DNA from: Alkalibacillus aidingensis
Lineage (GTDB): Bacteria > Bacillota > Bacilli > Bacillales > Alkalibacillaceae
Assembly: GCF_014595945.1 (NCBI RefSeq)
Contig: NZ_JABXWU010000014.1
Span: forward strand, 1 to 53,424
Length of the DNA stretch: 53,424 bases
Direction: 5' to 3'
Below the pieces are notes generated by a model. That model did not search any database, had not been told where the DNA came from, and saw nothing but the letters and a program-made list of their open reading frames with translations. Positions 1 to 47,155 of this stretch are shown piece after piece. Within the stretch, counting starts at the first letter, position 1; each line of letters opens with the position of its first letter. A program made the position numbers and the translations under genes.

Positions 1-84
1 CCAAGAGACTTACTACCTGTGCAACCATGCCCAGCACCAACTAGACCACCACAGTGCCCGACCATCTTTCCTAATAATGGTTAA
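1..84 (+). CDS. C-terminal tail of a Pro/Cys-rich protein (partial)
   Basis: The first frame is open from the window edge to a TAA at 82-84 and gives a 27-residue tail rich in proline with two cysteines (it ends CPTIFPNNG). A strong terminator starts 11 bp after the stop, which supports a real gene end. Small Pro/Cys-rich proteins are common among Bacillus spore coat proteins, and the neighbouring glycan locus would fit that, but the fragment is too short to assign a family. The start lies outside the window. Confidence 0.45.
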   Translation, partial: PRDLLPVQPCPAPTRPPQCPTIFPNNG

Positions 85-161: not shown

Positions 162-830
162 TCAATAACTTAACCTATCTAAAAATTGAGTACGAGTAGA
201 ATGGTAAAGATCTAAATCATGTTCATTCAATTCCTTTATCGTGTTGATTAAAGGCTGCGAAATATTATTTAAGGACGCACGATTTTTAGTCGTATTACGC
301 TTTTTAACCATAGAAAAATCCCAATTAAACTCCTTTTCCATGAAAGATAACGATTCATTATATAAGTCAGTAAAACCGATAAAAGTAAAGTGATTCGCGA
401 TATTTTCCTTAGCCTTTTGGATATCGTTAGGATCTCCGCCTGACAAATAACGAGTGGCTAAGTTCACGGTTCGGTAACGAATATTTCGTACATCTTCTTT
501 ACGTTTGAAGCGTTTATTCTCAATACCATCATCCTTCATATATGCCACAAACCTCTCAAGGCTCATTTGACTAACCGGATGGTTTAACGGATCTCGTTCA
601 TAGCTTCTAATATAGTAGTAAGTTGATATGACCCGATCAACAGGATCACGTAATATCGTTATATATCTTGCTGGTTCGTTAAGCACCTTAAAATACTTGT
701 TATGCCAAACATGTATCCTTTCCTTTTGCCTTCCTAACAAATCCCACATCGTTTGACCACCCGTTTTAGGGATATGCACAAAGACAATCGGATTTTTCTC
801 ATCAATGGTTTGCTGATCAAAAATTATCAT
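162..830 (-). CDS. Sulfotransferase family protein
   Basis: This is a 222-aa cytosolic sulfotransferase of the Sulfotransfer_2-like type, expected to move sulfate from PAPS to an acceptor. The N-terminal motif FVHIPKTGGQTMWDLL (about residues 17-32) is the 5'-phosphosulfate binding loop. ITILRDPVDRVISTYYY (about 57-73) is the 3'-phosphate binding motif. There is no signal peptide or membrane segment. The RBS AAGGAG lies 10 nt before the ATG. It is transcribed away from cysC-sat, which make PAPS, and lies next to a nonulosonic acid operon, so a glycan acceptor is inferred; a protein acceptor cannot be excluded. No PAPS reductase gene is seen nearby. Confidence 0.85.
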   Translation of the reverse strand: MIIFDQQTIDEKNPIVFVHIPKTGGQTMWDLLGRQKERIHVWHNKYFKVLNEPARYITILRDPVDRVISTYYYIRSYERDPLNHPVSQMSLERFVAYMKDDGIENKRFKRKEDVRNIRYRTVNLATRYLSGGDPNDIQKAKENIANHFTFIGFTDLYNESLSFMEKEFNWDFSMVKKRNTTKNRASLNNISQPLINTIKELNEHDLDLYHSTRTQFLDRLSY

Positions 831-975
831 ATCATCACCGCTCCTTCTCTAATTTAAACTACTGTATTATAAGTAGCCTAATAGAAATTTGTATAGGACA
901 AAGGAGAAGAATTTTAAAAAAGGTTGATTGCCATAGGGATGAAGACTATTTTTGTCTATTTTCAGCTTATTCTCT

Positions 976-1004
976 AACCAGTCTATTAGTTCGTTCATAT
1001 TATA
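976..1004 (+). promoter_or_regulatory. SigK-type promoter upstream of cysC
   Basis: AACC (976-979), a 16-nt spacer and CATATTATA (996-1004) match the mother-cell SigK consensus mACm-N16-CATAnnnTA at every defined position. The predicted start near 1011 leaves a leader of about 50 nt before the cysC RBS. This is a sequence match only; the AT-rich stretch TATATAGTATAAG next to it could also serve another sigma factor. Confidence 0.5.
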
Positions 1005-1059
1005 TAGTATAAGAACTTATTTGCTAGCTAAAAAGATAGGCAACTAGGAGGGGATCTAG

Positions 1060-1644
1060 ATGATTGATCATAACCATGAACATTCATTATCCAAAACAAA
1101 GCGTCAAGAATTAAAGGGTCATAAAAGTTTGGTTATATGGTTAACAGGGCTATCAGGTGCAGGAAAATCAACTATTGCTAAATATTTAGAAGAAAAATTA
1201 TTTTCCCAACATGTTCACACGTTCCTTTTAGATGGGGACGTAGTAAGAAATAGATTAAATCAGGATTTAGGCTTTAGTGCTGAAGACCGTCATGAGAATA
1301 TTAGAAGGATTGCAGAGTGTGCGCGGCTTTTCACTGATGCAGGATTAGTGACTATTACAGCAACTATTTCCCCATATAAACAGGATCGTGAATTAGCTCG
1401 ATCTTTATTTGATCAAGGCGATTTCATTGAAGTTTATGTTAAATGTTCATTAGAAGAATGTGAAAAGCGAGATCCAAAAGGCTTATATCCAAAGGCCCGT
1501 TCTGGTGAAATAGAGGAATTTACCGGAATCTCTCAACCTTACGAAGAGCCAGAAGAACCTGAAATCATAGTTGATACTACTGAACAGTCAGTAGACGAAT
1601 CAGTTAATCAAATTCTTCACTATATTGAACAGAATCTATTTTAA
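1060..1644 (+). CDS. cysC: Adenylyl-sulfate (APS) kinase
   Basis: CysC phosphorylates APS at the 3' position with ATP to give PAPS. The P-loop GLSGAGKST sits at residues 30-38, the length of 194 aa is normal, and the family segments RHENIRRIAE and PYKQDRELARS are present. The start has a strong AGGAGG box 8 nt upstream. sat follows after 15 bp, so the two form one operon. In assimilatory clusters the next gene is usually a PAPS reductase. Here it is absent and a sulfotransferase diverges instead, so PAPS as a sulfate donor is the likely purpose (inference). Confidence 0.95.
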   Translation: MIDHNHEHSLSKTKRQELKGHKSLVIWLTGLSGAGKSTIAKYLEEKLFSQHVHTFLLDGDVVRNRLNQDLGFSAEDRHENIRRIAECARLFTDAGLVTITATISPYKQDRELARSLFDQGDFIEVYVKCSLEECEKRDPKGLYPKARSGEIEEFTGISQPYEEPEEPEIIVDTTEQSVDESVNQILHYIEQNLF

Positions 1645-1659
1645 TAAGGAGGAATTACA

Positions 1660-2802
1660 TTGACTCAACAAGAGCCACACGGAGGAAAATTAGTTCATGC
1701 GTTTAATGATCGTTATGATTACCATTCGATTAAGCAAGAGGTAGAGATCGATTTAATGGCGTTAAATGATTTACAGCTCATTTCAAATGGGGCTTATAGT
1801 CCGTTGAATGGCTTTCTAGGCAGCCAAGATTACGACTCAGTCCTTCATCATATGCGATTGGACAACGGGATTATTTGGCCGCTTCCTATTACGTTACCAG
1901 TTAGTGAGCAAGCAGCTGATTTACTTACTGTTGGCGATCCCGTTAAGTTAACTTTTCAGAAGAACGTATATGCTGTTCTTCACCTTCACGAAAAATTTAG
2001 ACCTGATAAGCAATTAGAGGCCCAAAAGGTTTACCAAACGAAAGACCTTAACCATCCTGGAGTTTTCAAGTTAAATAAACGGCCTGAAGTATATCTAGCT
2101 GGGCCTATTACATTGGTGAAGGGGATCCACGTGAAAGAAGCATTTTCTCCCTTTTATTATAGCCCACGTGAATCACGTGAGCTTTTTGTAAAAAAAGGGT
2201 GGAAAACCATTGTTGGCTTTCAAACTAGGAACCCGATCCATCGTGCTCATGAGTATATCCAAAAGTGTGCCTTAGAAATAACCGACGGACTTTTGATTCA
2301 TCCTCTAATCGGTGAAACAAAATCAGATGACATCCCAGCAGAAGTTCGTATGGAAAGCTATAAAGTACTGCTTAATCAATATTATCCGTATGAGCGAGTA
2401 TTACTTGGGGTCTTTCCAGCATCTATGCGTTATGCAGGGCCAAGGGAAGCTATTTTCCACGCGTTAGTTCGAAAAAATTATGGCTGCACCCACTTCATTG
2501 TCGGTCGTGATCATGCTGGTGTTAAAGACTATTATGGCACCTATGACGCTCAAACTATTTTTAAAGAGTTTCCAGAAAGAGAAATCGGCATTCGACCCTT
2601 GTTCTTTGAACACGCCTTTTACTGTCAAGCTTGTCAGACGACAGCGACAACTAAGACCTGTCCACACAACAAAGAGCGAGTACAATTATCTGGCACAAAA
2701 GTAAGAGAGATGTTAAGAGAAGGGAAAATGCCTCCGGCTGAATTCAGCCGAAGAGAAGTCGCTTCTACTTTAATGAAGGGGTTAAGAACATCCTCTAATT
2801 AA
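1660..2802 (+). CDS. sat: Sulfate adenylyltransferase (ATP sulfurylase)
   Basis: Homomeric ATP sulfurylase (380 aa) making APS from sulfate and ATP. Visible signatures are [12 protein letters not shown] (the HxxH-type nucleotide motif near residue 190), [13 protein letters not shown], and the C-terminal [10 protein letters not shown] cysteine cluster (YCQAC, then TCPH) near residue 325 resembles the metal-binding knuckle found in many bacterial Sat proteins. The start is TTG, fixed by AAGGAGG 7 nt upstream. Its stop overlaps the stop of the opposing pseI by 4 bp, so nothing separates the two convergent operons. Confidence 0.95.
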
Positions 2803-3839
2803 AAGTGATCCCAAGAAATTGGGGTTCCTTTTTTTATTTCTTTGTTTACTTCTTTTCCAAGTAATCGATCATAGTATTTAGGAGGTAAGCCATACCCTGG
2901 GCGAATCACGCGCATGTTTTCTTTAGATAAACGATCTCCAGCTTGTAAATCCTTTGTTACATAAAGTGAGCGGCGTAATTTAGTCGAATCCTTTTCGGCA
3001 TCCGTTGGCCCATAATGGACGGTTCCTAACCCTTGCCATGCACATTTCGTTTCATCGACTAAGTTTTTTAATTCATCTGGTTCCATTGAGAAAGCAGAAT
3101 CGACGCCCCCTTCTGCACGTGATAAGGTAAAATGTTTTTCAATAAACGATGCACCTAAAGCAACGCTAGCAATCGCAACTCCAGTTCCTAAAGTATGATC
3201 AGATAAGCCAACCTGACAGTCGAACATCTTTTTCATATGAGGAATTGTTTGGATATTAGTATTCTCTGGTGAAGCTGGGTACGTACTCGTGCATTTAAGA
3301 AGAATTAAATCGTTGCACCCCGCTTCCCTAGCTGTTTCAACGGCTTCTGCAATTTCTGCTACCGTCGCCATTCCGGTTGAAATAATTATGGGTTTTCTTG
3401 TCTTAGCGACTTTTTTAATTAAAGGAAGATCGGTACATTCAAAAGAAGCAATCTTATAGCACGGAACATCAAAGCTTTCTAAAAAATCAACCGCTGATTC
3501 ATCAAATGGCGAGCTAAAGCCAATTAACCCTAATTCTTTACAACGGTCAAAGATGGCTTGATGCCATTCCCACGGTGTATAAGCTTCATGATACAAATCG
3601 TATAGTGACTGATTCTTCCAGAGGCTTTTAGCATCATCAATGACAAAATCATCGTGCTGAAGGTCAAGCGTCATCGTATCTGCCGTATACGTTTGCAGTT
3701 TAACTGCATCTACTCCTGCTTGCGACGCCACTTCTACCATTTCTAGAGCACGCTCAAGTGATTGATTGTGATTTCCAGACATTTCAGCAACAATCATCGG
3801 TTCTTGCTGTTCTCCAATTTCTCTTCCACCAATATTCAT
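2799..3839 (-). CDS. pseI: Pseudaminic/legionaminic acid synthase (NeuB family)
   Basis: Condenses phosphoenolpyruvate with a 6-deoxy-diacetamido hexose to form a nonulosonic acid. The 346-aa protein has the NeuB TIM barrel ([18 protein letters not shown] at the N terminus, [28 protein letters not shown]) and a C-terminal SAF/antifreeze-like domain from about residue 287. It is homologous to B. subtilis SpsE and to Campylobacter PseI; sequence reading alone does not settle pseudaminic versus legionaminic stereochemistry. The ATG has a GGGGGGA box 7 nt upstream. It is the last gene of the ten-gene operon. Confidence 0.9.
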
Positions 3840-3855
3840 GATAAATCCCCCCGTA

Positions 3856-4389
3856 TCATTGTCGTAATTCCGTTTTTACTTCTTGCCAGTAATCAGCAAA
3901 TAAAGCCAATGTTAATACATCGTGATATTGATGATTTTTGATAATATGGTCTTTCAGGCGTCCCTCGATATGAAACCCTAGCTTTTGGTGGTAATTCAAA
4001 CTTTTTTGATTCATTTCAATGACTTCTGCACAAATTTTATGGAGCTTTTGTTCTTGGAATATCTTATCAATCGCTAAGATTCCCATCGCCGTTCCCGCAC
4101 CACGTGGAGCCTTTAATTCGCCCATATAAAAACCCCAATAGCAACGCCTATGTTGACGATCCAAACTAGTCAAGTTAACTAGACCAATTGGTTCATCTCG
4201 ATAAGTGAATAACCATACTAACTTGTGGTCGTCTTGTTTGACACGTTCAAACCACTGGCGATGCTCTTCTGGAGTAATAAAGTGATCCGTATACATTGCT
4301 TGGCGTACGTGCTTGGAATTGCGCCAGGTTAGCACACGATCTAAATGTTTTTCAGTTAAATCGATCAAATGATAATCTGATAAACTCAC
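3856..4389 (-). CDS. pseH: GNAT N-acetyltransferase PseH/SpsD-like
   Basis: A 177-aa GNAT acetyltransferase expected to N-acetylate the 4-amino group of the UDP-linked sugar before hydrolysis by PseG. Typical features are an N-terminal TWRNSKHVRQAMY segment, PIGLVNLTSLDR, the acetyl-CoA loop around GELKAPRGAGTAMG, and a C-terminal NQKSLNYHQKLGF. It starts at GTG, overlapping the TGA of pseG by 4 bp (GTGA), so translation is probably coupled. In B. subtilis the equivalent gene is spsD. Confidence 0.88.
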   Translation of the reverse strand: MSLSDYHLIDLTEKHLDRVLTWRNSKHVRQAMYTDHFITPEEHRQWFERVKQDDHKLVWLFTYRDEPIGLVNLTSLDRQHRRCYWGFYMGELKAPRGAGTAMGILAIDKIFQEQKLHKICAEVIEMNQKSLNYHQKLGFHIEGRLKDHIIKNHQYHDVLTLALFADYWQEVKTELRQ

Positions 4390-5444
4390 GGTTCTCCCCC
4401 CAATATAAGCGGAATGGCTGGATTAACATTAGGAACCTTGGGAAAAGTCGAGAGAGCAAGCTTAGACATGGTTCTAACTTGTTGTGGGTCGTTGATTAAC
4501 TTTTCGATCGATCGTACTATCTGATTCTCACTGACTTTTTCACTCGTTCCTAAATATTCAATCAACCCAAGCTGATTAAACACACTAATAAGCTCCGATT
4601 GATTGCTAGCGGTTTTAATGACGATCGATGGCAGACCTAAATAGCCACGCTCATAACTTGAACTTCCTCCTGCACCAATGGCCAAGTCTGCTTGTGCGAT
4701 TAACTGAGCCATATAATCTATTTGGCAATGAACATTCGCCTGAAGGTGGTCTTGACACCACTTTTGAATTTGTGGTCGATTGGGGTTTTGCTTTCCGATC
4801 ACCACATCGACCATTAAATCTGGATCATTTAAACGTTCTAGCGCCTGAAGAGTTTTTATCGTTTCTCCTGTTGGGTCCGTTCCACCAAAAGAGATGAGTA
4901 TTCTATTGATTTCGCTACCTCTAGATAATATCTTTTCCCTTTCCTTTTTAAATTCGTTGCGAAGAATTAGGTACGTAGGTCCTAACAGCGTGGTGGTGTA
5001 CTCAGGAATAAGAGATTGATAACGTTTGTTGTATTCTGGATGAATTTGATAATCTAGTAATAAGTCACAATGATGTCTGCGATTGGCCAGGTCATCGATT
5101 ACCATCATACGTTTGACATATGGCTTAATCAGGTTTTGCCACTTTTGATCAATTTCATAATGGTCAATAATGAGACAATCAACCGTACCACTTCTTCGTA
5201 AAATTTCTTTAGTTAATTCAGCATCCTCTTTCCAATTAAACCGCCTATCTGTCTCATCTTTTCGAAAAGAATGGACGTTATACCCTTGACTCGAAAATAA
5301 ATGAGTAGGATTCCCTTCAAGTTCTTTACAAATAAATGAAACCTGTGCACCTTGTTGAGTGAGCTCATAAGCTAAGGTAAGACAACGCATCACATGACCT
5401 AAGCCTATTTCAATCGAGCCATCCACGCGAATGAAAATATTCAT
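4386..5444 (-). CDS. pseG: UDP-sugar hydrolase PseG/SpsG-like
   Basis: A GT-B fold hydrolase (352 aa) that removes UDP from the diacetamido sugar to give the substrate of PseI. The N terminus IFIRVDGSIEIGLGHVMRC carries the conserved G-x-GH-x-MR motif with the catalytic histidine. ISFGGTDPTGET and GGSSSYERGYLGLP in the C-terminal half are the UDP-binding loops. The start codon is ATG with a weak AGAGTGAT box. It lies 14 bp after pseF and overlaps pseH. Confidence 0.9.
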   Translation of the reverse strand: MNIFIRVDGSIEIGLGHVMRCLTLAYELTQQGAQVSFICKELEGNPTHLFSSQGYNVHSFRKDETDRRFNWKEDAELTKEILRRSGTVDCLIIDHYEIDQKWQNLIKPYVKRMMVIDDLANRRHHCDLLLDYQIHPEYNKRYQSLIPEYTTTLLGPTYLILRNEFKKEREKILSRGSEINRILISFGGTDPTGETIKTLQALERLNDPDLMVDVVIGKQNPNRPQIQKWCQDHLQANVHCQIDYMAQLIAQADLAIGAGGSSSYERGYLGLPSIVIKTASNQSELISVFNQLGLIEYLGTSEKVSENQIVRSIEKLINDPQQVRTMSKLALSTFPKVPNVNPAIPLILGGEP

Positions 5445-5458
5445 GGTTGATCACTCTT

Positions 5459-6184
5459 TCATGTCCTTTTTTGTTCAATATGAGCGTTGATGTTCACCCA
5501 CGACGGGTGTTCTTTTAGAAGATCTAATATATCTTCCATAGTGAAATGGGAATTTGTCGGGTAAATGTGTTCAATTATCCGTTTAATTAACTCGAAGTCT
5601 TCTGGAGTATCGACTGTCCAACGGTAATGACTAAGGTCTTCTTTGTGCTTCACCTGCTCGACATCGAATTCATTTAAGTGCTTCAACATATACGATGTCA
5701 CATGCTCTCGATCAGTTGGTGTCGTTGCCTTCTGGTGTAGTGTTTCTAATGTGCTCTGATTTAAAACTTCTGTGTCCATTCCCCGTGGATAGGTGCGAAT
5801 CATCGTATTGGAAACGTAATCAGATTTAGAACTGCGAAAACACTGTACGATTCGGTCAACAATAACCGGGTCGATCACCGGACAATCAGAAGTGAGTCGT
5901 ACGATGACATCAGCATTAAAAAACCTAGCCGCTTCCACATAACGTGATAAAACATCCTCCTTAGACCCTCGATAGACAGGAATATCAACTTGTTGACAAA
6001 AATCAACGATAGCATCATCTGTGGAATTTTCAGTTGTCGCCACTACCACTTCATCAAGCATACTAGCTCTTTGCAATCGATCCAGCTGATAGTGCAACAA
6101 AGGCCGGTTTAACACTGCTTTAAGCACCTTCCCAGGTAACCGAGTTGAACTCATACGTGCTTGAATAATAGCTGTCACTCGCAT
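5459..6184 (-). CDS. pseF: CMP-nonulosonate cytidylyltransferase
   Basis: Activates the nonulosonic acid with CTP. The N-terminal signature AIIQARMSSTRLPGKVLK is the nucleotide-binding loop of this branch (SpsF/PseF-like cytidylyltransferases), followed by LTSDCPVIDP and the Mg-binding region. I place the start at the ATG at 6184, giving 241 aa (MRVTAIIQ), because AGAGGGGG precedes it by about 6 nt; the frame is open 33 nt further upstream into pseC. Being a close relative of general sugar nucleotidyltransferases, the exact sugar specificity is inferred from the operon. Confidence 0.88.
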   Translation of the reverse strand: MRVTAIIQARMSSTRLPGKVLKAVLNRPLLHYQLDRLQRASMLDEVVVATTENSTDDAIVDFCQQVDIPVYRGSKEDVLSRYVEAARFFNADVIVRLTSDCPVIDPVIVDRIVQCFRSSKSDYVSNTMIRTYPRGMDTEVLNQSTLETLHQKATTPTDREHVTSYMLKHLNEFDVEQVKHKEDLSHYRWTVDTPEDFELIKRIIEHIYPTNSHFTMEDILDLLKEHPSWVNINAHIEQKRT

Positions 6185-6197
6185 ACCATCCCCCTCT

Positions 6198-7397
6198 TTA
6201 CTTTGCATAATGCTCAATCACCTTTTGAATTGCAGTAATCACATTTTCAACATCCTCATTTGACATCGCTGGGAACAAGGGTAACGTGATGATTTCTTCG
6301 TATAATTGCTCTACGTTTGGACAAATGCCTTTTTTATATCCAAGGTGTTGGTAGTAAGGTTGATAATAAACGGGAATGTAGTGAACATTCACCCCAATGT
6401 TTTCGTGTTGTAAAGCGGTAAATATCGTCTTCCGATCAGTCGTTAATTCTTCTAGTTTTAAACGAATCACATATAAATGCCAACTCGAATCACACCCGTT
6501 TGGTAGATTCGAGGTTTGAATTGGAGATAGTAGTTGAAAGGCTTCATGATATTTTTTAGCAATCTGCTTTCGCCTTTGAATGAATGAATCTAGCTTTTTT
6601 AACTGACTTATTCCAAGAGCTGCTTGTAAGTCTGTCATGCGATAATTGAAGCCTAAAAATTGCATTTCGTAATACCACGGTCCGTGATTTTCTAATAGTT
6701 TACTAGAATCTCGGGTCATACCATGTGTTCTAAATTGGATGAGTTTTTCATAATAATCTTGACGGTTAGTCGTTACGATACCACCTTCACCCGTCGTTAT
6801 TTGCTTGACCGGATGAAAGCTAAACATTGTCAGATCACTGATTGAACCAACCTTCCGACCGTGATCAGTCGCACCTAAAGCGTGCGCTGCATCTTCAATA
6901 ATCGTTAGGTCATGATCCTGAGCAATTTTTAACAGCTCTTGATAATTACAAGGATTCCCCATATAATCGACGGGCAGAATCGCTTTCGTTTGGTCCGTTA
7001 TTAATGACCGAACCTTTTGGAGGTCCATATTCCAAGTATCTGGATTAGTATCACTAAACACGGGTGTCGCTCGTTGATATAAAATACTATTGGCTGTTGC
7101 TGCAAACGTCATAGGCGTTGTTATGACTTCATCCCCCTCACCTACTCCTGCGGCAAAACAAGCTGCGTGTAAAGCTGCTGTCCCATTAGCAAAAGCAACA
7201 CCATACTTAGCCCCTACGTACTTGGCAAGTTCTTCTTCAAATTGATCAATTTTAGGACCCGTCGTTAAAAAGTCACTAGTTAGCGTTTCAACCACCGCTT
7301 CAACATCATCGTCACTCACCCACTGTTTTCCATAAGGTAAAAATGTTTTTCTTACAGGTTGACCACCGTGGATGGCAAGTTTAGATAATTTCTTCAT
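6198..7397 (-). CDS. pseC: PLP-dependent aminotransferase PseC/SpsC-like
   Basis: A DegT/DnrJ/EryC1-family sugar aminotransferase (399 aa) that aminates C4 of the 4-keto sugar made by PseB. The Schiff-base lysine lies in FSFHPVKQITTGEGG, preceded by the conserved IEDAAHALGA. FLTTGPKIDQFEEELA near the N terminus is typical. The start is backed by AAGGGGA and lies 17 bp inside the end of the upstream epimerase gene, so the two are coupled. The B. subtilis counterpart is spsC. Confidence 0.92.
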   Translation of the reverse strand: MKKLSKLAIHGGQPVRKTFLPYGKQWVSDDDVEAVVETLTSDFLTTGPKIDQFEEELAKYVGAKYGVAFANGTAALHAACFAAGVGEGDEVITTPMTFAATANSILYQRATPVFSDTNPDTWNMDLQKVRSLITDQTKAILPVDYMGNPCNYQELLKIAQDHDLTIIEDAAHALGATDHGRKVGSISDLTMFSFHPVKQITTGEGGIVTTNRQDYYEKLIQFRTHGMTRDSSKLLENHGPWYYEMQFLGFNYRMTDLQAALGISQLKKLDSFIQRRKQIAKKYHEAFQLLSPIQTSNLPNGCDSSWHLYVIRLKLEELTTDRKTIFTALQHENIGVNVHYIPVYYQPYYQHLGYKKGICPNVEQLYEEIITLPLFPAMSNEDVENVITAIQKVIEHYAK

Positions 7398-8349
7398 AGT
7401 GATCCCCTTGCCTGTATCGTTTAATCCAGTTTTCCGTGCGACGAATCCCCTCTTGAAGACTAATCTTTGGCTCCCATCCGATTAGCTGTTTGGCCTTATC
7501 ATAATTACAAGTAAGTTTGGCAATTTCACTTTGTAGATGAATGTGTTCAACATGTTCAATCGGCACTTGTTCATTGGCGATCAATTCGGCAAGTTCATTA
7601 ACGCTAATATCCTCACCTAATCCAGCATTGATAATTTCACCATTGGATAGATCGGAAAAACCTGCCTCAACGACAAATCGGGCACAATCCTCTACATAAA
7701 GTAAATCTCGTGTCTGCGTTCCATTGCCGTAAATTTGTAGTGGACGCTCCTCTAATTTATTGTTAAGGAAAATAGCGACGACTCCACCCTCCCCATTTGT
7801 TTTCTGGAAGGGCCCATACGTATTAAACGGACGCAAAACAACAGTTGGTAAGCCGTAAGCATGGTAATAGGACAACACCATATTTTCAGCAGCGATTTTA
7901 GCTCCTGCATAAGGGGAAGCAGGTTTCGTTGGGTCTGTCTCACGAATTCCATTAGCTTGCACAGCCTGATCATATACCATACACGTACTCATAAACACTA
8001 GCTTTACATGGTATTTCTTACAAGCTTCTAACACGTAAAATGTCCCAACTGTATCGTTCATAAAAGTCGTTTGGGGATCATCAATGCTATCTTGAACATT
8101 AATACTAGCTGCTAAGTGATAACAAACGTCAAACCGTGTTGAAGAGAATAGATCTTTGATTAGTTGTCGATCCTTCATATCACCTTGGATAAATTCCATT
8201 AAATTACTATAACTCATTAATCCCCTAATATTTTCGACTCGACCATTTGACAAATCATCGATCACCCAAACATAATGGCCCTCATTTAATAATCGTTGGA
8301 CTACCCAACGACCGATAAAACCGGCTCCACCTGTCACTAAAACATTCAT
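7381..8349 (-). CDS. NAD-dependent NDP-sugar epimerase/dehydratase
   Basis: An extended short-chain dehydrogenase (322 aa) acting on a nucleotide sugar. VLVTGGAGFIGRWVV is the Rossmann glycine motif and SPYAGAKIAAE supplies the catalytic Y-xxx-K. It resembles UDP-glucose/UDP-GlcNAc 4-epimerases; the substrate is not readable. I prefer the ATG at 8349 (MNVLVTGG), 7 nt after AAAGGAGGG, over the TTG two codons earlier. It is not one of the six nonulosonate steps, so it probably supplies a second sugar for the same glycan. Confidence 0.88.
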   Translation of the reverse strand: MNVLVTGGAGFIGRWVVQRLLNEGHYVWVIDDLSNGRVENIRGLMSYSNLMEFIQGDMKDRQLIKDLFSSTRFDVCYHLAASINVQDSIDDPQTTFMNDTVGTFYVLEACKKYHVKLVFMSTCMVYDQAVQANGIRETDPTKPASPYAGAKIAAENMVLSYYHAYGLPTVVLRPFNTYGPFQKTNGEGGVVAIFLNNKLEERPLQIYGNGTQTRDLLYVEDCARFVVEAGFSDLSNGEIINAGLGEDISVNELAELIANEQVPIEHVEHIHLQSEIAKLTCNYDKAKQLIGWEPKISLQEGIRRTENWIKRYRQGDHYEEII

Positions 8350-8369
8350 GTTCAACCCTCCTTTAAAAT

Positions 8370-9800
8370 TTAACTCAATCGTTTGATTAATTGAGTCAGT
8401 CGTCGTCCAGCGGTTCCCTCTTGCTTCGGGTAAGCATGTGCTAAAAATTGTTCTCGCTTTTGCTTAACCCTTTCTCGTAGGCGTTCATCTTCAAAATACT
8501 TATCGACCAACTTAGCTAATTTAATCGGATCTTCCTGTACGAGTTCATCCAACATGTCGTAATATCCCGTGTACCCAGGGAAGGACTGATTGAAAATGAA
8601 TACTGGTTTTCCTGCAATCATCGATTCAAGTCCGACTGTTGAAGAATAAGTCACTACGGCATCAACATGGTGAATCACATCATGTAAGTGAAACCCCTTA
8701 GTCGATTTTAAATTCGAAAATTCCTTTAACAATGGGTGATCGTGAACATTCGGGAAATCCCGAAGTATGATATTATATGGTTCATTTTTGGTAATGGCTC
8801 TTAAAAACTGACGCCATTTGTTTAGGTTCTGTCTCCCTCTCACAGCAAGTAGAATCGTTTTTTTATACGGTTCAATCCCTACTTTGTCTTGAAATGATTT
8901 CTTTGTTTTGGTCGGCTTTTTAAAGATTAAGTCAAACCTTGGGTGTCCGATGATTTCTGTTTTAAGTTCACTGCTATTAACGCCTTTATCCTGATACCAC
9001 TGCTCTTCAAAATGTCCATAGACCCCGTCGATATAGGCAACCTTTGGTAAATACCCAAACCCACTAGAGAAGATTCCATGCTGTAAACAGATGGTAGGAA
9101 TCCCCTTTTCTGCTGCGACCATCACAAGTGTACGACTTTCCGGGTAATGGGTTGAAGGTACGATCACACATGCAGTCGTTACTTTACTAAATAGATTTCT
9201 GGCTTCAACCATTCGGTTAATAATTTTTTCTATTTGCTGAAGGAAATTTTTCTGAAAGTGTTCGTTTTGGACTAGTGAATGATTTGAGTACTTCTCCATC
9301 AATTGTTGTGCCTGATTTTTAACCTTCTTTATTCGATGTCTCATAGACTTGGATCGTGCCGAATATTGGTCAAAAAACTCCGTTGGGAACCTAGTGTGTC
9401 GCGGGTTTCGTTTATAATGGCGTTCCATCATGATCAGTGACCTTGACGGTTTAAACTGAGATCTTAAAATTTCGTTTGGAATTCTTAGTAAATTGTAAAC
9501 ATCGTACAGGACTACCTTTCCGCCTTTAGCAGGTCTAAGTTGACGGCGACTATGCTTTTTAACAAATTCATTAAACACCATTTGAATGTCTGTATCATCC
9601 GTTACTTGATGATGAAGCGTCTTATAAAAACCAGGTTGTTTAAGCGAATTTAATAGTGGTTGATTACGTCTAATTAAACTTCCGAAATGACATAAATAAG
9701 AAAGAGAAAAGCCTCCATACTGAAGGTTTTCAAACATCTTCAAAAACTCAAGATACAATGACCAGTAATTCTTTTCATAATGACTCAATTGATTCCCCAT
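8370..9800 (-). CDS. SpsB-like CDP-glycerol transferase/GT-B fold protein
   Basis: 476 aa. The C-terminal half looks like the GT-B nucleotide-sugar or CDP-glycerol transferase fold: KGIPTICLQHGIFSSGFGY, EIIGHPRFDLI, LLAVRGRQN, then VVTYSSTVGLESMIAGKP, the typical donor-binding helix. The N-terminal half has no recognisable motif. Length and context match SpsB of the B. subtilis spore polysaccharide operon. It probably polymerises or transfers part of the glycan, but the substrate is unknown. It is clearly paralogous to the 455-aa product two genes upstream. Confidence 0.7.
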   Translation of the reverse strand: MGNQLSHYEKNYWSLYLEFLKMFENLQYGGFSLSYLCHFGSLIRRNQPLLNSLKQPGFYKTLHHQVTDDTDIQMVFNEFVKKHSRRQLRPAKGGKVVLYDVYNLLRIPNEILRSQFKPSRSLIMMERHYKRNPRHTRFPTEFFDQYSARSKSMRHRIKKVKNQAQQLMEKYSNHSLVQNEHFQKNFLQQIEKIINRMVEARNLFSKVTTACVIVPSTHYPESRTLVMVAAEKGIPTICLQHGIFSSGFGYLPKVAYIDGVYGHFEEQWYQDKGVNSSELKTEIIGHPRFDLIFKKPTKTKKSFQDKVGIEPYKKTILLAVRGRQNLNKWRQFLRAITKNEPYNIILRDFPNVHDHPLLKEFSNLKSTKGFHLHDVIHHVDAVVTYSSTVGLESMIAGKPVFIFNQSFPGYTGYYDMLDELVQEDPIKLAKLVDKYFEDERLRERVKQKREQFLAHAYPKQEGTAGRRLTQLIKRLS

Positions 9801-9815
9801 ATCATCACCTAATCC

Positions 9816-10820
9816 TCAATCAATTAATTGTTCACTCAATAACAATTGTCGTACCTCTTCAACAGAAATAGGCGTTACTCGATTCGAACTATAGGTTCCG
9901 TGATCCGTACGGTTCGCTCCAAGATTCCACAGACCCGATTGTTGATGACCAGGGATGATATACATCTCCTCTAACTCCCATGCCATAGTCGATTCGTCAT
10001 AGGTCATTAACTCTTCATACATCTTCTCTCCAGGTCTTAAGCCAATTTCTTCAATTTGAATGTCTTCGTGGTTTAATTGATGCTTTTGACAAGTTTCATC
10101 AATCACAACCTCCGCTAAATCTTTTAATAAAATAACCGGCATTTTTAAAACGAAGACTTCCCCACCTTCAGCTTTCTGTAAGGCTTCCATCATTAATTCT
10201 GTCGCCTGATTCAGAGTCATCATAAACCGAGTCATGTTAAGGTCAGTGACGGTAATTTTTCGCTGAGTGTGAATCTGTCTTTGGAATAGAGGAACAACAG
10301 ACCCCCTTGAACCTAAGACATTACCAAAGCGAACACTAGCAAAAATGGTTTTGACCTCCCCTTTACTATACTCAGTTGAAGATATGAGCCTTTCAGCTGT
10401 CAGTTTAGTAGCACCATACGTATTGGTTGGCGAAACCGCCTTATCCGAGCTAGTAAACAGAACTTTCTCTACCCCTTGTGCCATTGCAGCTTGAATGACG
10501 TTATAAGTTCCGTGAACATTCGTTTGCACCGCTTCATACGGATTATACTCACATGATGGAACGTGCTTCATTGCCGCTAAATGAAAAACATAATCGATAT
10601 CTTGCATCGCACTAGATAGACGTTGGTAATCTCTTATATCACCGATTAAATAGCTCAGGTTATCATAATGGTTGATCTCATTTTGTAATAGATATTGTTT
10701 ATATTCGTCACGGCTAAATACTCTAATAACTTCGGGTTCTTCACGTAATAAACGGTTCACTAATCGATCACCAATTGCTCCTGTACCACCGATAACTAAT
10801 ATTTTTTTATCCTTAAACAT
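9816..10820 (-). CDS. pseB: UDP-GlcNAc 4,6-dehydratase PseB/SpsM-like
   Basis: First committed step: dehydration (inverting in PseB) of UDP-GlcNAc to a 4-keto-6-deoxy sugar. ILVIGGTGAIGDRLV is the cofactor loop and TNTYGATKLTAERL holds the catalytic Y-xxx-K. The start is the ATG at 10820 (MFKDKK, 334 aa, normal family length), preceded by GAGAGGAAG; the frame is open 72 nt further upstream without an RBS. The 153-bp gap to the gene upstream is the largest in the operon and could hold an internal promoter. Confidence 0.92.
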   Translation of the reverse strand: MFKDKKILVIGGTGAIGDRLVNRLLREEPEVIRVFSRDEYKQYLLQNEINHYDNLSYLIGDIRDYQRLSSAMQDIDYVFHLAAMKHVPSCEYNPYEAVQTNVHGTYNVIQAAMAQGVEKVLFTSSDKAVSPTNTYGATKLTAERLISSTEYSKGEVKTIFASVRFGNVLGSRGSVVPLFQRQIHTQRKITVTDLNMTRFMMTLNQATELMMEALQKAEGGEVFVLKMPVILLKDLAEVVIDETCQKHQLNHEDIQIEEIGLRPGEKMYEELMTYDESTMAWELEEMYIIPGHQQSGLWNLGANRTDHGTYSSNRVTPISVEEVRQLLLSEQLID

Positions 10821-10973
10821 TGCAAACTTCCTCTCATTATCTATGAGTGTTCCTATCACATTACTTAGATCAACTCTTATAAAATAAGTCAATATATCAC
10901 ATCTATATTCTATATAAGTAGAGAGTGTATAGACATAAGTGTTAAGAATAAGAAATTTACGAGAGAATTGGGG

Positions 10974-12341
10974 TTATTGGGAGAGGAGTTCACAATCAAT
11001 GAGATTCTTAAGGAGCAGCATAGAGGAGTGTCTTAATTGAATACCCTGCTTAGTTAAAAACGATTCTAGACTTGTTAATGTTGAGGTTTGTCGAATATTT
11101 CCGAGGAAATATTTGAGATTGTTTACCAGCTTGTGAGATTCTTGATAGAAAAAAGGGTCAAGATCTTGAAAATAGTCAATGGGATTAGGACTGTTCTGCT
11201 TCCAAATAAAAACAGGCTTACTTGCAATCATTGCTTCTAAAGCAACCGTTGATTCATAACTAACAACTATATCAGCGTAACGAATAAGATCATATAACTG
11301 GATGCCTTTTGCCAAATAGACATTTGAATAACGCTTTGAATAAGTTCGTAGTTTTTTGACATGAGTGCGTGGCTTGATGATGATGTTAACGGGTTGATTG
11401 TTAAGTTCGCGCATAATAGATTCCAGATCGTTAAATTGCTCATGGTGACTGATGATTAGGATGTTTTTTTGTTTAGGATGAATCCTAAGCTTCCGGTTAA
11501 ATGTTCGTCTATTAGTTTGAGGTGGATGGTTAATTTCATCAAAACGCGGATGACCAATGACTTTGATATTTTCTGACGGCACACCTGAATTCAGATAGAG
11601 GTTTCTCTCATAATTTCCATAAACCGCTAAGAAATCGGCTAATTTCGGTAAATAACCGAGTGGCGATGCAATAATTCCATGTTGCATGCATATCGTGGGA
11701 ATCCCATGTTGTCTGGCAACTAACGCAAGTGCCCGCCCTTCTAAATGATTAGTACTTCCAAGCACAAAACCAGAAACTGATATATGCTTCATAAAATTCT
11801 CGGCTGCCTGGAGCGTTGGAATAATCTTTGATAACTCATTTAGAAGATTTTGTTGAAAAGTCGTGTCACTAAATACAGGGTGATAGGTTTGTTTATTGAA
11901 TAATTGCTTGAGCTGCCTTTGATAAGGCTTTATTTGAGTCGTTTTTTCAAATTCATTAAGCTGTTCAATTTGAAAGGGAGTTGATGTTTTTGGATTCGTT
12001 TGATTCCTTAAAATGATTAAATCTCGCTTGTGATAATGCTTTTTTAGTAACTTAAATGGTATACGTAATAATTGATCATGAAAGACGATTGGACTTTTGG
12101 TATGGGATTGTTGACTATAGCCAGGTGGTAATAATCGATTAAACCGTGTTTGGACAGGTTCCAACTGTTTGGACGATGGTTTATTTTGTGAAAATTGCTC
12201 AACGGTCTGATTGTCTTTAATCAATTGATAAAAATGACTACATAAAACAATTGGAGTGCCATGATATTCTACCGATCGGAAGCGCTCCAGAAAGTCGACG
12301 TATAGATTCCAATAATTTTGCACATATGAGATCATGCTCAT
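10974..12341 (-). CDS. SpsB-like GT-B fold protein, second paralogue
   Basis: 455 aa and related along its length to the 476-aa operon member. Shared features are the N-terminal YVQNYWNLYVDFLERF (compare YEKNYWSLYLEFLKMF), QHGIPTICMQHGIIASPLGY, VIGHPRFDEI and VVSYESTVALEAMIASKP. This points to duplication within the locus followed by divergence. Likely a cytosolic transferase acting on the same surface polymer; donor and acceptor cannot be read. It starts 3 bp after the stop of the preceding gene, behind AAAGGGTG. Confidence 0.65.
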   Translation of the reverse strand: MSMISYVQNYWNLYVDFLERFRSVEYHGTPIVLCSHFYQLIKDNQTVEQFSQNKPSSKQLEPVQTRFNRLLPPGYSQQSHTKSPIVFHDQLLRIPFKLLKKHYHKRDLIILRNQTNPKTSTPFQIEQLNEFEKTTQIKPYQRQLKQLFNKQTYHPVFSDTTFQQNLLNELSKIIPTLQAAENFMKHISVSGFVLGSTNHLEGRALALVARQHGIPTICMQHGIIASPLGYLPKLADFLAVYGNYERNLYLNSGVPSENIKVIGHPRFDEINHPPQTNRRTFNRKLRIHPKQKNILIISHHEQFNDLESIMRELNNQPVNIIIKPRTHVKKLRTYSKRYSNVYLAKGIQLYDLIRYADIVVSYESTVALEAMIASKPVFIWKQNSPNPIDYFQDLDPFFYQESHKLVNNLKYFLGNIRQTSTLTSLESFLTKQGIQLRHSSMLLLKNLIDCELLSQ

Positions 12342-12344
12342 TCA

Positions 12345-13625
12345 TCACCCTTTAGACGTGAGTATAAATACGTTACGATCTATGGCATGAGTGTTGATAC
12401 GGCTCTGTTTACCTTCAATTTGCTCCAGCTTATTAAAAAAATGACGTATCTCACGTTCGGTTAAACGGGGAAATCGATATTTAGCATTTCTATTTTTCCG
12501 GCGTTTTCTCTTAGTAGACGAAAGGTCTAATGTGGAATTGTTTTTTATAGGAATTTCTTTTAAAGAATTAATTAGATGCTGATAGGCATCCGTTGCCGTC
12601 CAACCACTCACATGATAGTTAAGTAAATTCAGCTGTCTTATCGTTAATGATGGATGATTAGGATTCTCTTGAATATTTGCCACAGTTTCTTGAACGTCTT
12701 TTAAGGTAGTTGCTTGAATACTAAAGTCACTCGGCAATGGGTCATCGAAGTCTGAAGGAGAAATGGGTTTATAAGATATCGCTGGTTTACCTAACAAACC
12801 TGCTTCAATGCCGGTTGTGCAATTGTTATGAATCATCAACTTAGAAGCCAAAATCCAATCAACAACGTTTCCATAAGGAGCTATTGTGATATTCGGTTGC
12901 TCATTGAAATGTCGTTTATACACTTCTACGTTTTCAGCTGGATGTGGCCTAATCACAATCATTTGATAAGGATTTTGCGAACTTAAATAATCAATCAGTT
13001 CAATAAACGAAGAAAATAGTTTCTTCATATATCGATAGAGATCCGAATCATCATGTTTTTGCTGTCTTCTCACCTGATTGTAAACCGCAAAACGAGTATT
13101 AATTAAGAGGAAATCACCGTATTCTTCGCGTATTTTATGAACCCGTGGATGATACAATCTTCGGTACTTCTCCTTTAACAGATCAAAGCGTGGATTACCT
13201 GTTAAAAAAGTTTTTGTCTTGACGTGTGGGTAAGCATCAGTGATTACCCCCTGTTGGTGCCTTCCCCAGCAATAGATGTGATCTAATTGATCAACAAATT
13301 CCTGATTCATACGACTCTCAATGTACCCTTTACGATTCGGAATAATTAACCCCTCTTCATCTAATTCAACTAGACGATGTCCAACTCTTTTGACTAGTTT
13401 GAAAACTCGTGATTTATATGGATCAGGATAACCCTTCGAGAAAAAAATCCCCGGGGGACCTTCCTTTGCCACACGTTCAACTGCTACATGTTCGCCAAGT
13501 ACCACACGAAACCCTTCATTAATCGCATGGTAAGCCAGCAAAAGCTTAGCATCCAACTCCCTCACTTTCACCTCCACTGGCAAATATAACCACGGGCCTA
13601 GTGAGGAACCTTGTGAATCAACCAT
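12345..13625 (-). CDS. Surface carbohydrate biosynthesis protein
   Basis: First gene of the operon, 426 aa from the ATG at 13625. The seven codons before that ATG (starting at 13646) are really its RBS (AAAGGGGGGAG, 4-5 nt from the ATG). The N terminus LYLPVEVKVRELDAKLL and the later GNPRFDLL and HNNCTTGIEAGLLGKPA match the family called surface carbohydrate biosynthesis protein, found next to nonulosonate genes in other bacteria. The C-terminal 60 residues are very basic (KRKRRKNRNAKYR). Its biochemical role is not established. Confidence 0.7.
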   Translation of the reverse strand: MVDSQGSSLGPWLYLPVEVKVRELDAKLLLAYHAINEGFRVVLGEHVAVERVAKEGPPGIFFSKGYPDPYKSRVFKLVKRVGHRLVELDEEGLIIPNRKGYIESRMNQEFVDQLDHIYCWGRHQQGVITDAYPHVKTKTFLTGNPRFDLLKEKYRRLYHPRVHKIREEYGDFLLINTRFAVYNQVRRQQKHDDSDLYRYMKKLFSSFIELIDYLSSQNPYQMIVIRPHPAENVEVYKRHFNEQPNITIAPYGNVVDWILASKLMIHNNCTTGIEAGLLGKPAISYKPISPSDFDDPLPSDFSIQATTLKDVQETVANIQENPNHPSLTIRQLNLLNYHVSGWTATDAYQHLINSLKEIPIKNNSTLDLSSTKRKRRKNRNAKYRFPRLTEREIRHFFNKLEQIEGKQSRINTHAIDRNVFILTSKG

Positions 13626-13893
13626 TCTTCTCCCCCCTTTTACCATTATATGAAGAGGACAAGATTAGGTGATTGGGTGCTTAGTGTAAGGTTTTTTAAG
13701 ATGAGAGAAGTTAGGGGATATGATCGTCACTTACCACAAAAATACATAAGTATTTAATCTTAATCGTTTAATAATCAAAATGAAATATAAAAATTCTTAA
13801 CATCTAGCAAAATGATTTTAAATATAATGATAATTATATATACTAGTAAATAGATCGGAATTATCAATTTTATAAACTAAAGGTAGGGTAGTT

Positions 13894-16053: not shown

Positions 16054-17524
16054 TTAATTATTTAATTCTTGAAATAGGTCATACAATACATTAGCTGTTT
16101 GAATACAGTCTGTTTTAACATGTCCTTTAAAAGCTCCTTCATGAAAGCCTTGATATAATCCTAATGCATGACCTTTTAGAATGTCTTCTTTAGCCCAATC
16201 ACCAAAGTTTGAAGTATCTTCAAATACCTTCTCCTCAGAAGCATCTAACTCCTCATCAGCTACCTACTCATAAGCACGAACGACAATAACAGCCATTTCT
16301 TTTCGATTTAATGTCTTGTCTGGCTCAAACGTTGAATCTGTTGTTCCGTTAGTTATTCCAGCCACATAAGCGGCATTAACCGCTGCTTGGACATCACCGT
16401 CTACATCATCAAATGGATTTGCTTCATTACTATCAATATCTAATAGATTAACTAAAGCTTGAATAAATTCACCACTTGTTATTTGTTCATGTTTGTCAAA
16501 ACTATTTCCAAAGAGTCCATCAAATACTCCTTCATCTGCAAGTGTTTCTATTTTGCTATAAGCTTGATCAGAAGCCGGTACATCTTCAAAAGGAAATTCT
16601 ACTCCATATTCCACTTCAGAAATACGACCTTCTGCTTCATATTCAATAGGTTCATCAAATGATTTAATGAAATCTACAGTTGCATCTAAATCAACTGCGC
16701 CGACTTCCATATTTTCTGATACCTGTCCGATGAAACTATCATCACCACCACCGTACATATAGTTGTTTACAACGACAGTGTAAGTTTCATCAGGGTCAAT
16801 TTTAGAACCGTCTGGTAAGAAAATACCGACTACTTCTTGCGTTGTATCCTACCAAGTATAGCTAAACCCACCAACTATAATCAGGTCCATGTTCCTTTGA
16901 AATTTGATTATTCAATACTTCTTCTAAACCTGAACCTTTAATATCTACCTTATTTAATACATTGCCAAATGGTTGTACCGTGAAAACATCACCATACGTA
17001 ATGTCACCTTCGTTAATGTCAGCACGTATTCCTCCACCATTCATAAGAGCAAAATCAGCATCCATTTCCTCTTTCATACCGTCAGCAATTAAATTTCCTA
17101 AAGCGTTATCACCAATCTCACCACGTTCAGGATATCCACCCTCTAAGTCAAATTTGCTTCTCCAACTATTTCGTTCTTAAGCTCAGCTACTTCTTGTTGA
17201 CCCACAATCTCTTCTACATAATAAGGATCTAAAATTAAATCTTCTGTATCCTTATACTGAACATTGGCAGCAACCATTGGGAAATCCATACCATCATAGC
17301 CTTCAGTCCCATTTTCATGCTCGCCACCATCGATCATGCGTAATAACTCGTCAACACCTTCATCAAACTCATGATTACCAAGTGTCCCAACATCAAAACC
17401 AATTGCTTAATAGCTGTACAGATACATAATCATCACCTTGTGCAGCATTCACACTACCAAAAGGTAGAATGAGAGATAATGACATGACCATCAAAATCCA
17501 TTTCTTAGTAAAAAGAATTTTCAC
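16054..17524 (-). pseudogene. 5'-nucleotidase (UshA-type) with SLH domains, degraded
   Basis: The ancestral product was an exported bifunctional nucleotidase/phosphoesterase with C-terminal SLH anchors. A GTG start at 17524 behind GGGGAGAG still encodes an intact signal peptide (MSLSLILPFGSVNAAQG). Then about 100 codons with the first metal-binding motifs are missing and a stop follows, before GFDVGTLGNHEFDEG resumes. Further lesions are frameshifts near 17147 (after VGEAN) and 16870 (after GPDYS), an amber codon near 16840, and an amber codon at 16262-16264 in the last SLH domain. Conserved segments such as FALMNGGGIRADINEGD, TYTVVVNNYMYGGGDD and ADEGVFDGLFGNSF survive. At least five independent lesions make sequencing error an unlikely explanation. 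Confidence 0.88.
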
Positions 17525-45700: not shown

Positions 45701-47155
45701 TTAATGGCCTGAAGACAAGCCACCAATCTTTTGTTTTAGAGCTTTACTCTCACCGTTTAATCCAGTATAACTTACTACCGTTCCATTTTGCTCGAATTTT
45801 CCTTCAAGTTTATCTAATGCACCTATAGCCGAGTCATCCCACAAGTGCGCATGCGTTAGATCAATTTCTACTTCTTCCCAATGACCTTGCTCAAAATCAA
45901 TCTGATCAAGGAAATCCGTAACTGAAGCGAAGAACAGTTGACCTTCAACCTTGTAAATCATTTTCATTTCGTTGTTAGCAATCTGCTCTGTGACTTTCAC
46001 TTTAGAAATCTTTGCAGCGAAGAAAATCGCACTTAATAATACTCCAGCTAGAACGCCTTTAGATAGGTCGTGCGTGTAAACAACAGTACCCACGGTCGTT
46101 AACATCACTGCAGCGTCCGTTTTCGGCAGTTTATGAAGATTTCGGGCGGATGACCAATCAAACGTCCCAATCGAAACCATAATCATCACCCCTGCTAGTG
46201 CAGCCATTGGAATTTGAACCACGATACCACCGAGCGCAATGATTAAGAACATTAAGAAGACACCGGCAACCAGTGATGACAAACGCCCATTACCACCAGA
46301 TTTGACATTAATAACTGACTGACCGATCATCGCACAACCAGCCATACCACCGAAAAATCCAGCCGTCACGTTGGCATAACCTTGACCTCTGCTTTCCTTA
46401 TTCTTATCACTTTCTGTATCGGTCATATCATCGACAATATTAGCCGTTAATAATGACTCTAGTAAACCTACAATAGAAAGTGCTAATGCATATGGGAAAA
46501 TAATTTGTAATGTCTCAAAGTTAAGTGGAATATCTGGAATTAAGAATATTGGTAACTGTTGCGTTAAATTACCTAAATCCCCAACTGTACGTACATCGAT
46601 TCCCATAAAGATCACCACAGATGTAATCACGATAATTGCCACCAATGGAGATGGAACTGATTTTACAAATCGTGGAAGAATATAAATAATTGCTAACGTT
46701 AAACCAACTAATGCATACATCACCCAGTTTTCACCGTGAAAATGTTCAAACTGTGACGTTAAGATAAGAATTGCTAACGCATTAACAAATCCCACCATCA
46801 CCGAACGTGGGACAAACTTCATAATCGCAGCTAATTTAAAAACACCGAATAATATTTGTAAAATACCAGTTAAAATCGTCGCTGCTAATAAATACTGTAA
46901 ACCGTAATCTGCAACAAGCGTAATCATCAGTAAAGCCATTGCACCAGTAGCACCCGATATCATACCAGGACGTCCACCGATAAAAGCAATAACCACCGCA
47001 ATACAAAATGATGCATAAAGCCCAACCATCGGGTCAATACCAGCAATAATGGAGAACGCAATCGCTTCAGGAATTAACGCTAACGCAACCACAATTCCTG
47101 CAAGCACATCACCTCTCACATTTCCAAACCATTCTTGTCTAATTCTTGATATCAT
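45701..47155 (-). CDS. SulP-family anion permease with STAS domain
   Basis: 484 aa, a multi-pass inner-membrane transporter for sulfate, bicarbonate or another anion. [19 protein letters not shown] is the SulP signature region, and [18 protein letters not shown] a conserved pore helix. A C-terminal STAS domain (about 390-484) has [20 protein letters not shown]. Sulfate would suit the PAPS-making genes at the left of the window, but bicarbonate is equally possible in a marine or alkaline organism. AAAGGAAG precedes the ATG. Confidence 0.88.

Follow-up and report, generated by a model that had tools for sequence, protein, structure and literature searches.

Why would a bacterium keep the genes that activate sulfate, together with a sulfotransferase gene, side by side with an operon for a sialic acid-like sugar? 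The question is raised by a stretch of DNA from Alkalibacillus aidingensis, contig C6 (NZ_JABXWU010000014.1, 53,424 nucleotides, here called the window) of a genome of 2.84 Mb that is 98.95% complete, in which the features at positions 162-13646 were re-examined after a preliminary description. A gene for a predicted sulfotransferase (ST) and the pair cysC-sat, which would supply 3′-phosphoadenosine 5′-phosphosulfate (PAPS), adjoin there an operon of the pse/sps type, for a nonulosonic acid (NulO) akin to pseudaminic acid (Pse) or legionaminic acid (Leg). The answer that we favour, with a probability of about 0.63, is that the products of this locus assemble a glycan of the outermost spore layer and sulfate it. 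What can be read directly are the families of the enzymes, the synteny of their genes, the lack of a reductive route for PAPS among those searched, the linkage to spore coat genes and a set of promoter-like sequences.

Activity, timing, acceptor and place are what we infer from these, and the course of events would be as follows. The pse/sps operon would make CMP-nonulosonic acid, which SpsB-like transferases would put into a glycan of the coat or exosporium. At a late stage of sporulation, sigma-K would turn on cysC-sat in the mother cell, Sat and CysC would convert ATP and sulfate into PAPS, and ST would move sulfate from PAPS to a hydroxyl of the spore-surface glycan that contains the NulO. 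The sulfated glycan would then be laid on the spore, in its coat or exosporium. Spo0A is present in the genome. If all this is true, a polyanionic modification best known from animals would be added to an established class of spore glycan loci, and late sporulation would have a second use of activated sulfate, beside sulfolactate. We found no report of sulfated bacterial spore glycans, or of sulfate esters on them, in the open-licence literature; NulO and sulfated groups have been described together in sludge polymers, in a study whose abstract does not mention spores (PMC10483923). Sugars of the spore surface are described as affecting the charge, wetting and adhesion of spores (PMC7439481).

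The sulfotransferase and its neighbours

The membership of ST in the Sulfotransfer_2 family is supported both by the Pfam profile (45.9 bits for a cut-off of 22) and by the sequences HIPKTGG and RDPVDRVIS, which we take to be the PAPS-binding motifs of sulfotransferases. In 17 aligned STs, the H, P, K, T and second G of the first motif and the R, P and S of the second are invariant. Compared with the PDB, a profile of the alignment finds heparan sulfate 6-O-sulfotransferase 3 (E 2.7e-21) and the 2-O-sulfotransferase HS2ST (1.4e-9), and the AlphaFold model (predicted local distance difference test, pLDDT, 92.7; best PDB match 5t03) resembles HS6ST and HS2ST enzymes ahead of the SULTs that act on small molecules. 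The window enzyme is like heparan sulfate 6-O-sulfotransferase and other Sulfotransfer_2 members in its PAPS-binding motifs and fold, while being bacterial and short. The 12 close STs, that of the window included, share a VWH or IWH motif in place of the GH(x)3G of divergent bacterial members, and the histidine of VWH/IWH is a candidate for the catalytic base. The C-terminus of the window ST is 13-20 residues shorter than those of the other 11. The genome has no match to PF13469, a second family of sulfotransferases.

Among 149 genomes compared, the present one included, 15 contain a match to ST at 1e-5. A search of named genomes gave 37 ST loci, of which 15 (L055-L069) were examined and L070-L091 left out; at an identity of at least 50%, orthologues were found in 12 named genomes, namely three Alkalibacillus, Tenuibacillus multivorans (G009), five Gracilibacillus, Thalassobacillus devorans, Aquibacillus albus and Halalkalibacter alkalisediminis (L066). 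The order and strands of ST, cysC, sat and the pse genes are kept in A. haloalkaliphilus NBRC 103110 (G001) and A. filiformis (G002), at 46-74% protein identity and with the second SpsB-like gene missing in both, so that the arrangement is beyond chance. In A. haloalkaliphilus C5 (G003), one contig carries ST, cysC, sat and pse genes with no PseI between PseH and sat, and a PseI is found on a different contig. Eight of the 12 named genomes have pse-type genes at most 10 kb from the ST orthologue. In Aquibacillus, only a homologue of the third SpsB-like gene is near ST, on a short contig; in Halalkalibacter, ST is inside a broken pse operon, past which sat and cysC lie. The break itself (L066:6990-9112) leaves a short-chain dehydrogenase/reductase (SDR) gene in two pieces and ST and PseF cut short, and no PseC is seen in that locus.

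Tenuibacillus keeps a complete ten-gene operon and an ST-cysC pair on separate contigs; a coat gene adjoins PseI on the operon contig, at the junction where ST-cysC-sat stands between coat gene and PseI in Alkalibacillus. The Tenuibacillus pair itself (L023-L024) lies between a D-Ala-D-Ala carboxypeptidase gene, near sporulation sigF, and putative nucleoside-metabolism genes. In Gracilibacillus orientalis (G112), PseI and ST share a contig, 136 kb apart. Other combinations are met further away: Metabacillus arenae (L067) has three divergent STs directly before a pse operon, and in two genomes (G028, G073) two sulfotransferase-like genes, one above and one below the Pfam cut-off, and an SpsB-like gene come after PseI, and cysC-sat is found within 12 kb. 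In G016, PseI, sat, a putative transporter gene, cysC and an inositol-phosphatase-family gene follow one another on one strand, with no ST. In G025, a divergent ST and a coat gene are separated by 15 kb, and the 30 kb read there contain no PseI.

Counted over the genomes, Sulfotransfer_2 and CysC genes lie within 20 kb of each other in 13 of 20 (8 genera; 0.36 expected), and Sulfotransfer_2 and PseI within 10 kb in 5 of 9, from 2 genera only. These expectations, and those given below, suppose uniform placement on 4 Mb and treat genomes as independent, so that the linkage P values are overstated. The view that a PAPS-using sulfation module is tied to the NulO locus is supported by the enzyme families and by the synteny kept in G001 and G002. 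The possibility raised in the preliminary description, that relatives carry the two sets of genes at unlinked places, is borne out in part, by the separate contigs of Tenuibacillus and by three Gracilibacillus with no pse-type gene within 10 kb of ST.

Spore coat genes and sigma-K-type promoters

The gene beyond ST in G001-G003 encodes a spore coat protein of the BMQ_0737 family (NF052457, 203-207 bits for a cut-off of 71; 215 bits for the Thalassobacillus member), which has no Pfam match and was named through NCBIfam. BMQ_0737 has been placed among the outermost spore proteins of Bacillus (Priestia) megaterium (PMC4656864). The neighbour of ST belongs to this same family, that of a structural protein and not a pathway enzyme, and we came across no mention of sulfation or glycosylation of BMQ_0737. 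In the window, the translation of positions 1-84 resembles the C-terminal end of the coat genes beside ST in G001-G003. The family search finds no copy in the genome, probably because near-identical copies of the gene broke the assembly; bases 1-76 of the window recur at the start of contig C1, 99% identical.

A Sulfotransfer_2 gene and a coat gene of this family lie within 20 kb of each other in 12 of the 16 genomes that have both, from 7 genera, for an expectation of 0.52 (11 of 15 when the window, added by hand, is set aside). CysC is within 10 kb of the coat gene in 9 of 63 genomes (0.74 expected) and PseI within 20 kb in 7 of 21 (0.41 expected), and in L062 the coat gene is followed by pse-type genes in the same orientation. 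The locus shows the linkage with genes of the outer spore layers that would mark a spore-surface glycan locus of the sps type. The loci L062-L065 have a further group of genes near ST and the homologue of the third SpsB-like gene, encoding the coat protein, a protein of about 191-194 aa, another of about 102-111 aa, a putative coiled-coil protein and a JAB-domain protein; apart from the JAB and coat proteins, the members scanned have no Pfam match. Elsewhere (G103, G132, G027, G093, G066), cysC, accompanied by sat in four of the five genomes, is 2-10 kb from a longer gene (374-392 aa) with a BMQ_0737 domain, and G027 and G132 have no Sulfotransfer_2 gene among the matches listed. Sulfate activation beside coat genes may thus be wider than the present locus.

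Gene by gene, the window operon presumably corresponds to the sps genes of Bacillus subtilis. These are reported to have sigma-K promoters, to produce legionaminic acid within the mother cell and to be required for the crust (PMC7439481; PMC517825). The sps/spsM pathway serves the spore surface with, as here, an aminotransferase, an acetyltransferase, a hydrolase, a synthase, a cytidylyltransferase, a dehydratase and SpsB-like proteins (PMC7439481). The present locus differs in that its operon includes the dehydratase and one more SDR and has ST, cysC and sat adjoining it; moreover, no sigma-K promoter was found for its operon, unlike what is described for sps (PMC7439481). The PseC, PseH, PseG and PseI equivalog matches favour Pse, but the sps route makes Leg (PMC7439481). 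The string 'sulfat' does not occur in the main text of PMC7439481.

Two descriptions of sigma-K promoters were applied. The plain pattern, AC-N14..17-CATANNNTA within 300 bp upstream, has a background of 0.03 per 300 bp; the published consensus is KCACM-(14-16)-GCATANNNTA (PMC3416734; PMC517825), taken with the -10 core exact and at least three of five positions in the -35. In the first set of coat genes, the plain pattern is found upstream of all 11 copies; it is also present upstream of cysC in the window and in G001, G002 and G003, that is, in all four Alkalibacillus genomes with the locus; it is not found in the 300 bp upstream of cysC in G009, L062 and L066. Thirty other cysC genes have no match directly upstream (0/30), one of these genes, on C4 of G016, being 14 kb from a coat gene. 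The heads of cysC operons were then divided into linked ones, at most 20 kb from a Sulfotransfer_2 gene, a coat gene or PseI, and 39 unlinked ones, which are part of all listed cysC matches. The plain pattern is met in 9/20 linked against 1/39 unlinked (Fisher P 1e-4), the published consensus in 11/20 against 1/39 at three of five positions (P 6e-6) and in 8/20 against 0/39 at four of five (P 6e-5). Among the linked operons, 4 of 13 genera have at least one match to the plain pattern and 6 of 13 to the published consensus. The latter is an imperfect detector, since it matches 7 of 12 coat genes in its own run, and its 15 listed matches in the window at three of five make it weak evidence for any single site. 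The plain pattern has six matches in the window, over both strands, and only that at 977-1004 is intergenic and before a start codon in the tables of open reading frames (ORFs); chance was rejected as its source on this ground. On sequence, cysC-sat has a predicted sigma-K-type promoter. The connection to the spore, drawn earlier from homology alone, is now supported both by these promoters and by the coat genes.

Sigma-K-type sequences also stand upstream of PseB in G028 and G073, before ST in G025 and G117 (further off in G066), before a transporter-cysC-sat operon in Thalassobacillus and before the gene two before ST in two Gracilibacillus. There is none within 300 bp of the head of the NulO operon in G001, G002 and G009. 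ST has a promoter-like element of its own, whose core ATAATACA(G/T)T is present in the window and six orthologues (G009, L057, L060, L061, L062, L064) and absent upstream of ST in G001-G003, L063, L065 and L066. This element is one base off the -10 sequences given for sigma-E and sigma-K (PMC3416734).

Several results weigh against a sulfated glycan of the spore. ST and the coat gene are more than 20 kb apart in 4 of the 16 genomes that have both, and 5 of 21 Sulfotransfer_2 genomes have no coat match among the matches listed, including G028 and G073, where ST is beside PseI. In the window, no sigma-K-type sequence is found within 300 bp upstream of ST or of the pse operon head, and the ST element also reads as TATAAT, which we take to be a perfect sigma-A -10. 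No pse-type gene is within 10 kb of ST in four of the 12 named genomes (Tenuibacillus, G. orientalis, G. suaedae and G. lacisalsi). ST is accessory to the NulO locus, since, of 31 genomes whose PseI has at least 63% identity, 22 lack a Sulfotransfer_2 gene; within the genus itself, G004 and G005 have coat and PseI-like genes and no ST.

Acceptor, surface and the fate of PAPS

If a spore glycan is sulfated, which of its sugars would carry the sulfate? As a special case, the nonulosonic acid itself might be the acceptor, the spore then bearing a sulfated sialic-acid analogue. The window, G001 and G002 all have ST, cysC and sat next to the NulO operon, ST lies within the broken operon of Halalkalibacter, and, in another arrangement, the two sulfotransferase-like genes follow PseI in G028 and G073; all this speaks for it. 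The four named genomes just listed and the divergent ST near a coat gene without PseI in G025 speak against it, as do the nearest solved relatives of ST, which act on heparan sulfate according to their PDB titles. We regard this case as rather unlikely, and the same doubt extends to its broader form, in which sporulating Bacillaceae of salty and alkaline places would sulfate their spore NulO at a time set by sigma-K, with a dedicated late supply of PAPS. A different sugar of this surface may accept the sulfate, because the STs of Tenuibacillus, three Gracilibacillus and G025 lack nearby pse-type genes or PseI. In B. subtilis, the crust glycan rather than Leg itself has been suggested as the source of hydrophilicity and negative charge (PMC7439481), which would fit a sulfated sugar other than NulO.

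It is also conceivable, and in our view unlikely, that the glycan belongs to vegetative cells, as part of flagellin, S-layer or capsule, with the coat gene an incidental neighbour. Pse is reported to decorate flagellins in other bacteria (PMC7439481), a protein with an SLH domain is encoded at 16264-16758, and the silence of the window upstream of ST and of the operon head as regards sigma-K would suit such a role. It would leave aside the linkage of ST to the BMQ_0737-family gene, which recurs in 7 genera, the pse-type genes that follow the coat gene in L062 and the sigma-K-type sequences before cysC in the window and before PseB in G028 and G073. Still less probable is an action of ST on a small molecule or a protein, the neighbourhood being a mixed island of surface genes: the acceptor is unreadable from sequence, which leaves room for it, but in structure as in sequence ST comes closest to polysaccharide sulfotransferases, with SULTs behind, and it is linked with glycan genes.

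There remains the use of PAPS in the cell. The yitBA-yisZ operon of B. subtilis includes genes for Sat and CysC. Like the pair discussed here, these are sulfate-activation genes; they are expressed late, in the sporulating mother cell, and their inferred role is phosphosulfolactate synthesis (PMC517825). Here, unlike there, no PAPS reductase and no ComA accompany them. Profile searches of the A. aidingensis genome give one Sat and one CysC match. PF01507 matches two proteins, DndC (597 bits) and TilS (190 bits), and therefore no PAPS or adenosine phosphosulfate reductase (CysH) was found; the preliminary description had noted its lack nearby, which holds across the whole genome searched. The search for the phosphosulfolactate synthase ComA gave nothing in this genome and was positive for the B. 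subtilis control, and the sole NIR_SIR protein is a 225-aa form far under the CysI and NirB cut-offs. Neither assimilatory sulfate reduction nor the sulfolactate route is represented in this genome by its enzyme, CysH or ComA, and both were rejected as uses of PAPS. In many of the control cysC operons from relatives there is a gene that matches CysH in size, the property by which it was judged. That cysC-sat serves a reductive use during sporulation, with ST as a bystander, is thus very improbable: the late expression of yitBA-yisZ would favour it (PMC517825), against which stand these searches, the completeness of the genome and the place of cysC beside ST in G001-G003 and G009. DndC is encoded together with DndB, both for DNA phosphorothioation, on contig C22 (L033).

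Layout of the locus

ST, cysC, sat and the NulO genes are all present as open ORFs, and their adjacency, stated in the preliminary description, is confirmed by ORFs and family scans (Table 1). One intergenic region separates the rightward pair cysC-sat from the leftward ST, and the NulO operon is convergent with sat. Read from sat outwards, its ten genes are PseI, PseH, PseG, SpsF/PseF-type, PseC, SDR, SpsB-like 1, PseB/SpsM-type, SpsB-like 2 and SpsB-like 3. Homologues of all six enzymes for CMP-Pse or CMP-Leg stand in this one operon, as first proposed; those of PseI, PseH, PseG and PseC pass the NCBIfam cut-offs, and those of PseB and PseF fall under their equivalog cut-offs, their exact activity being less certain. 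The three transferase-like proteins announced earlier were all recovered as the SpsB-like genes, and the SDR and the coat gene end are additions to that first list.

Table 1. Features at the left end of the window, with positions, strands and supporting evidence
Feature	Positions	Strand	Evidence
BMQ_0737-family morphogenetic spore coat gene end, last 27 codons + stop	1..84	+	frame-1 translation; cut by contig start
Predicted PAPS-dependent carbohydrate O-sulfotransferase (ST), HS6ST/HS2ST-like, 222 aa	162..830	-	Sulfotransfer_2, PDB profile, AlphaFold model
Promoter-like element CTTATAATACAGTA before ST	860..873	-	conserved core in orthologues
Sigma-K-type promoter (predicted) of cysC-sat: TAACC, 15 bp, TCATATTATA	975..1004	+	pattern match
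cysC, adenylylsulfate kinase	1060..1644	+	apsK 262 bits, cut-off 138.7
sat, ATP sulfurylase	1660..2802	+	433 bits, cut-off 323
pseI/spsE-type NulO synthase	2799..3839	-	TIGR03586 515.6 bits, cut-off 340
pseH/spsD-type N-acetyltransferase	3856..4389	-	TIGR03585 152 bits, cut-off 93
pseG/spsG-type UDP-sugar hydrolase	4386..5444	-	TIGR03590 299 bits, cut-off 154
spsF/pseF-type cytidylyltransferase	5459..6217	-	Pfam CTP_transf_3; PseF 30 bits, below cut-off 206
pseC/spsC-type aminotransferase	6198..7397	-	TIGR03588 496 bits, cut-off 424
SDR sugar epimerase/dehydratase	7381..8355	-	Pfam Epimerase/GDP_Man_Dehyd
SpsB-like glycosyltransferase 1	8370..9800	-	Glyphos_transf + LpxB matches; weak KpsC similarity, E 0.06
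pseB/spsM-type UDP-GlcNAc 4,6-dehydratase	9816..10892	-	Polysacc_synt_2 349 bits; TIGR03589 325 bits, below cut-off 408
SpsB-like glycosyltransferase 2	10974..12341	-	weak surface-carbohydrate matches under cut-offs
SpsB-like surface carbohydrate protein 3, operon head	12345..13646	-	TIGR04396 352 bits, cut-off 125

The AlphaFold model of SpsB-like 1 has a mean pLDDT of 59.9. Further along the window, a gene for a SulP-family sulfate permease is found at 45701-47155, above the Pfam cut-off and below that of the NCBIfam subfamily.

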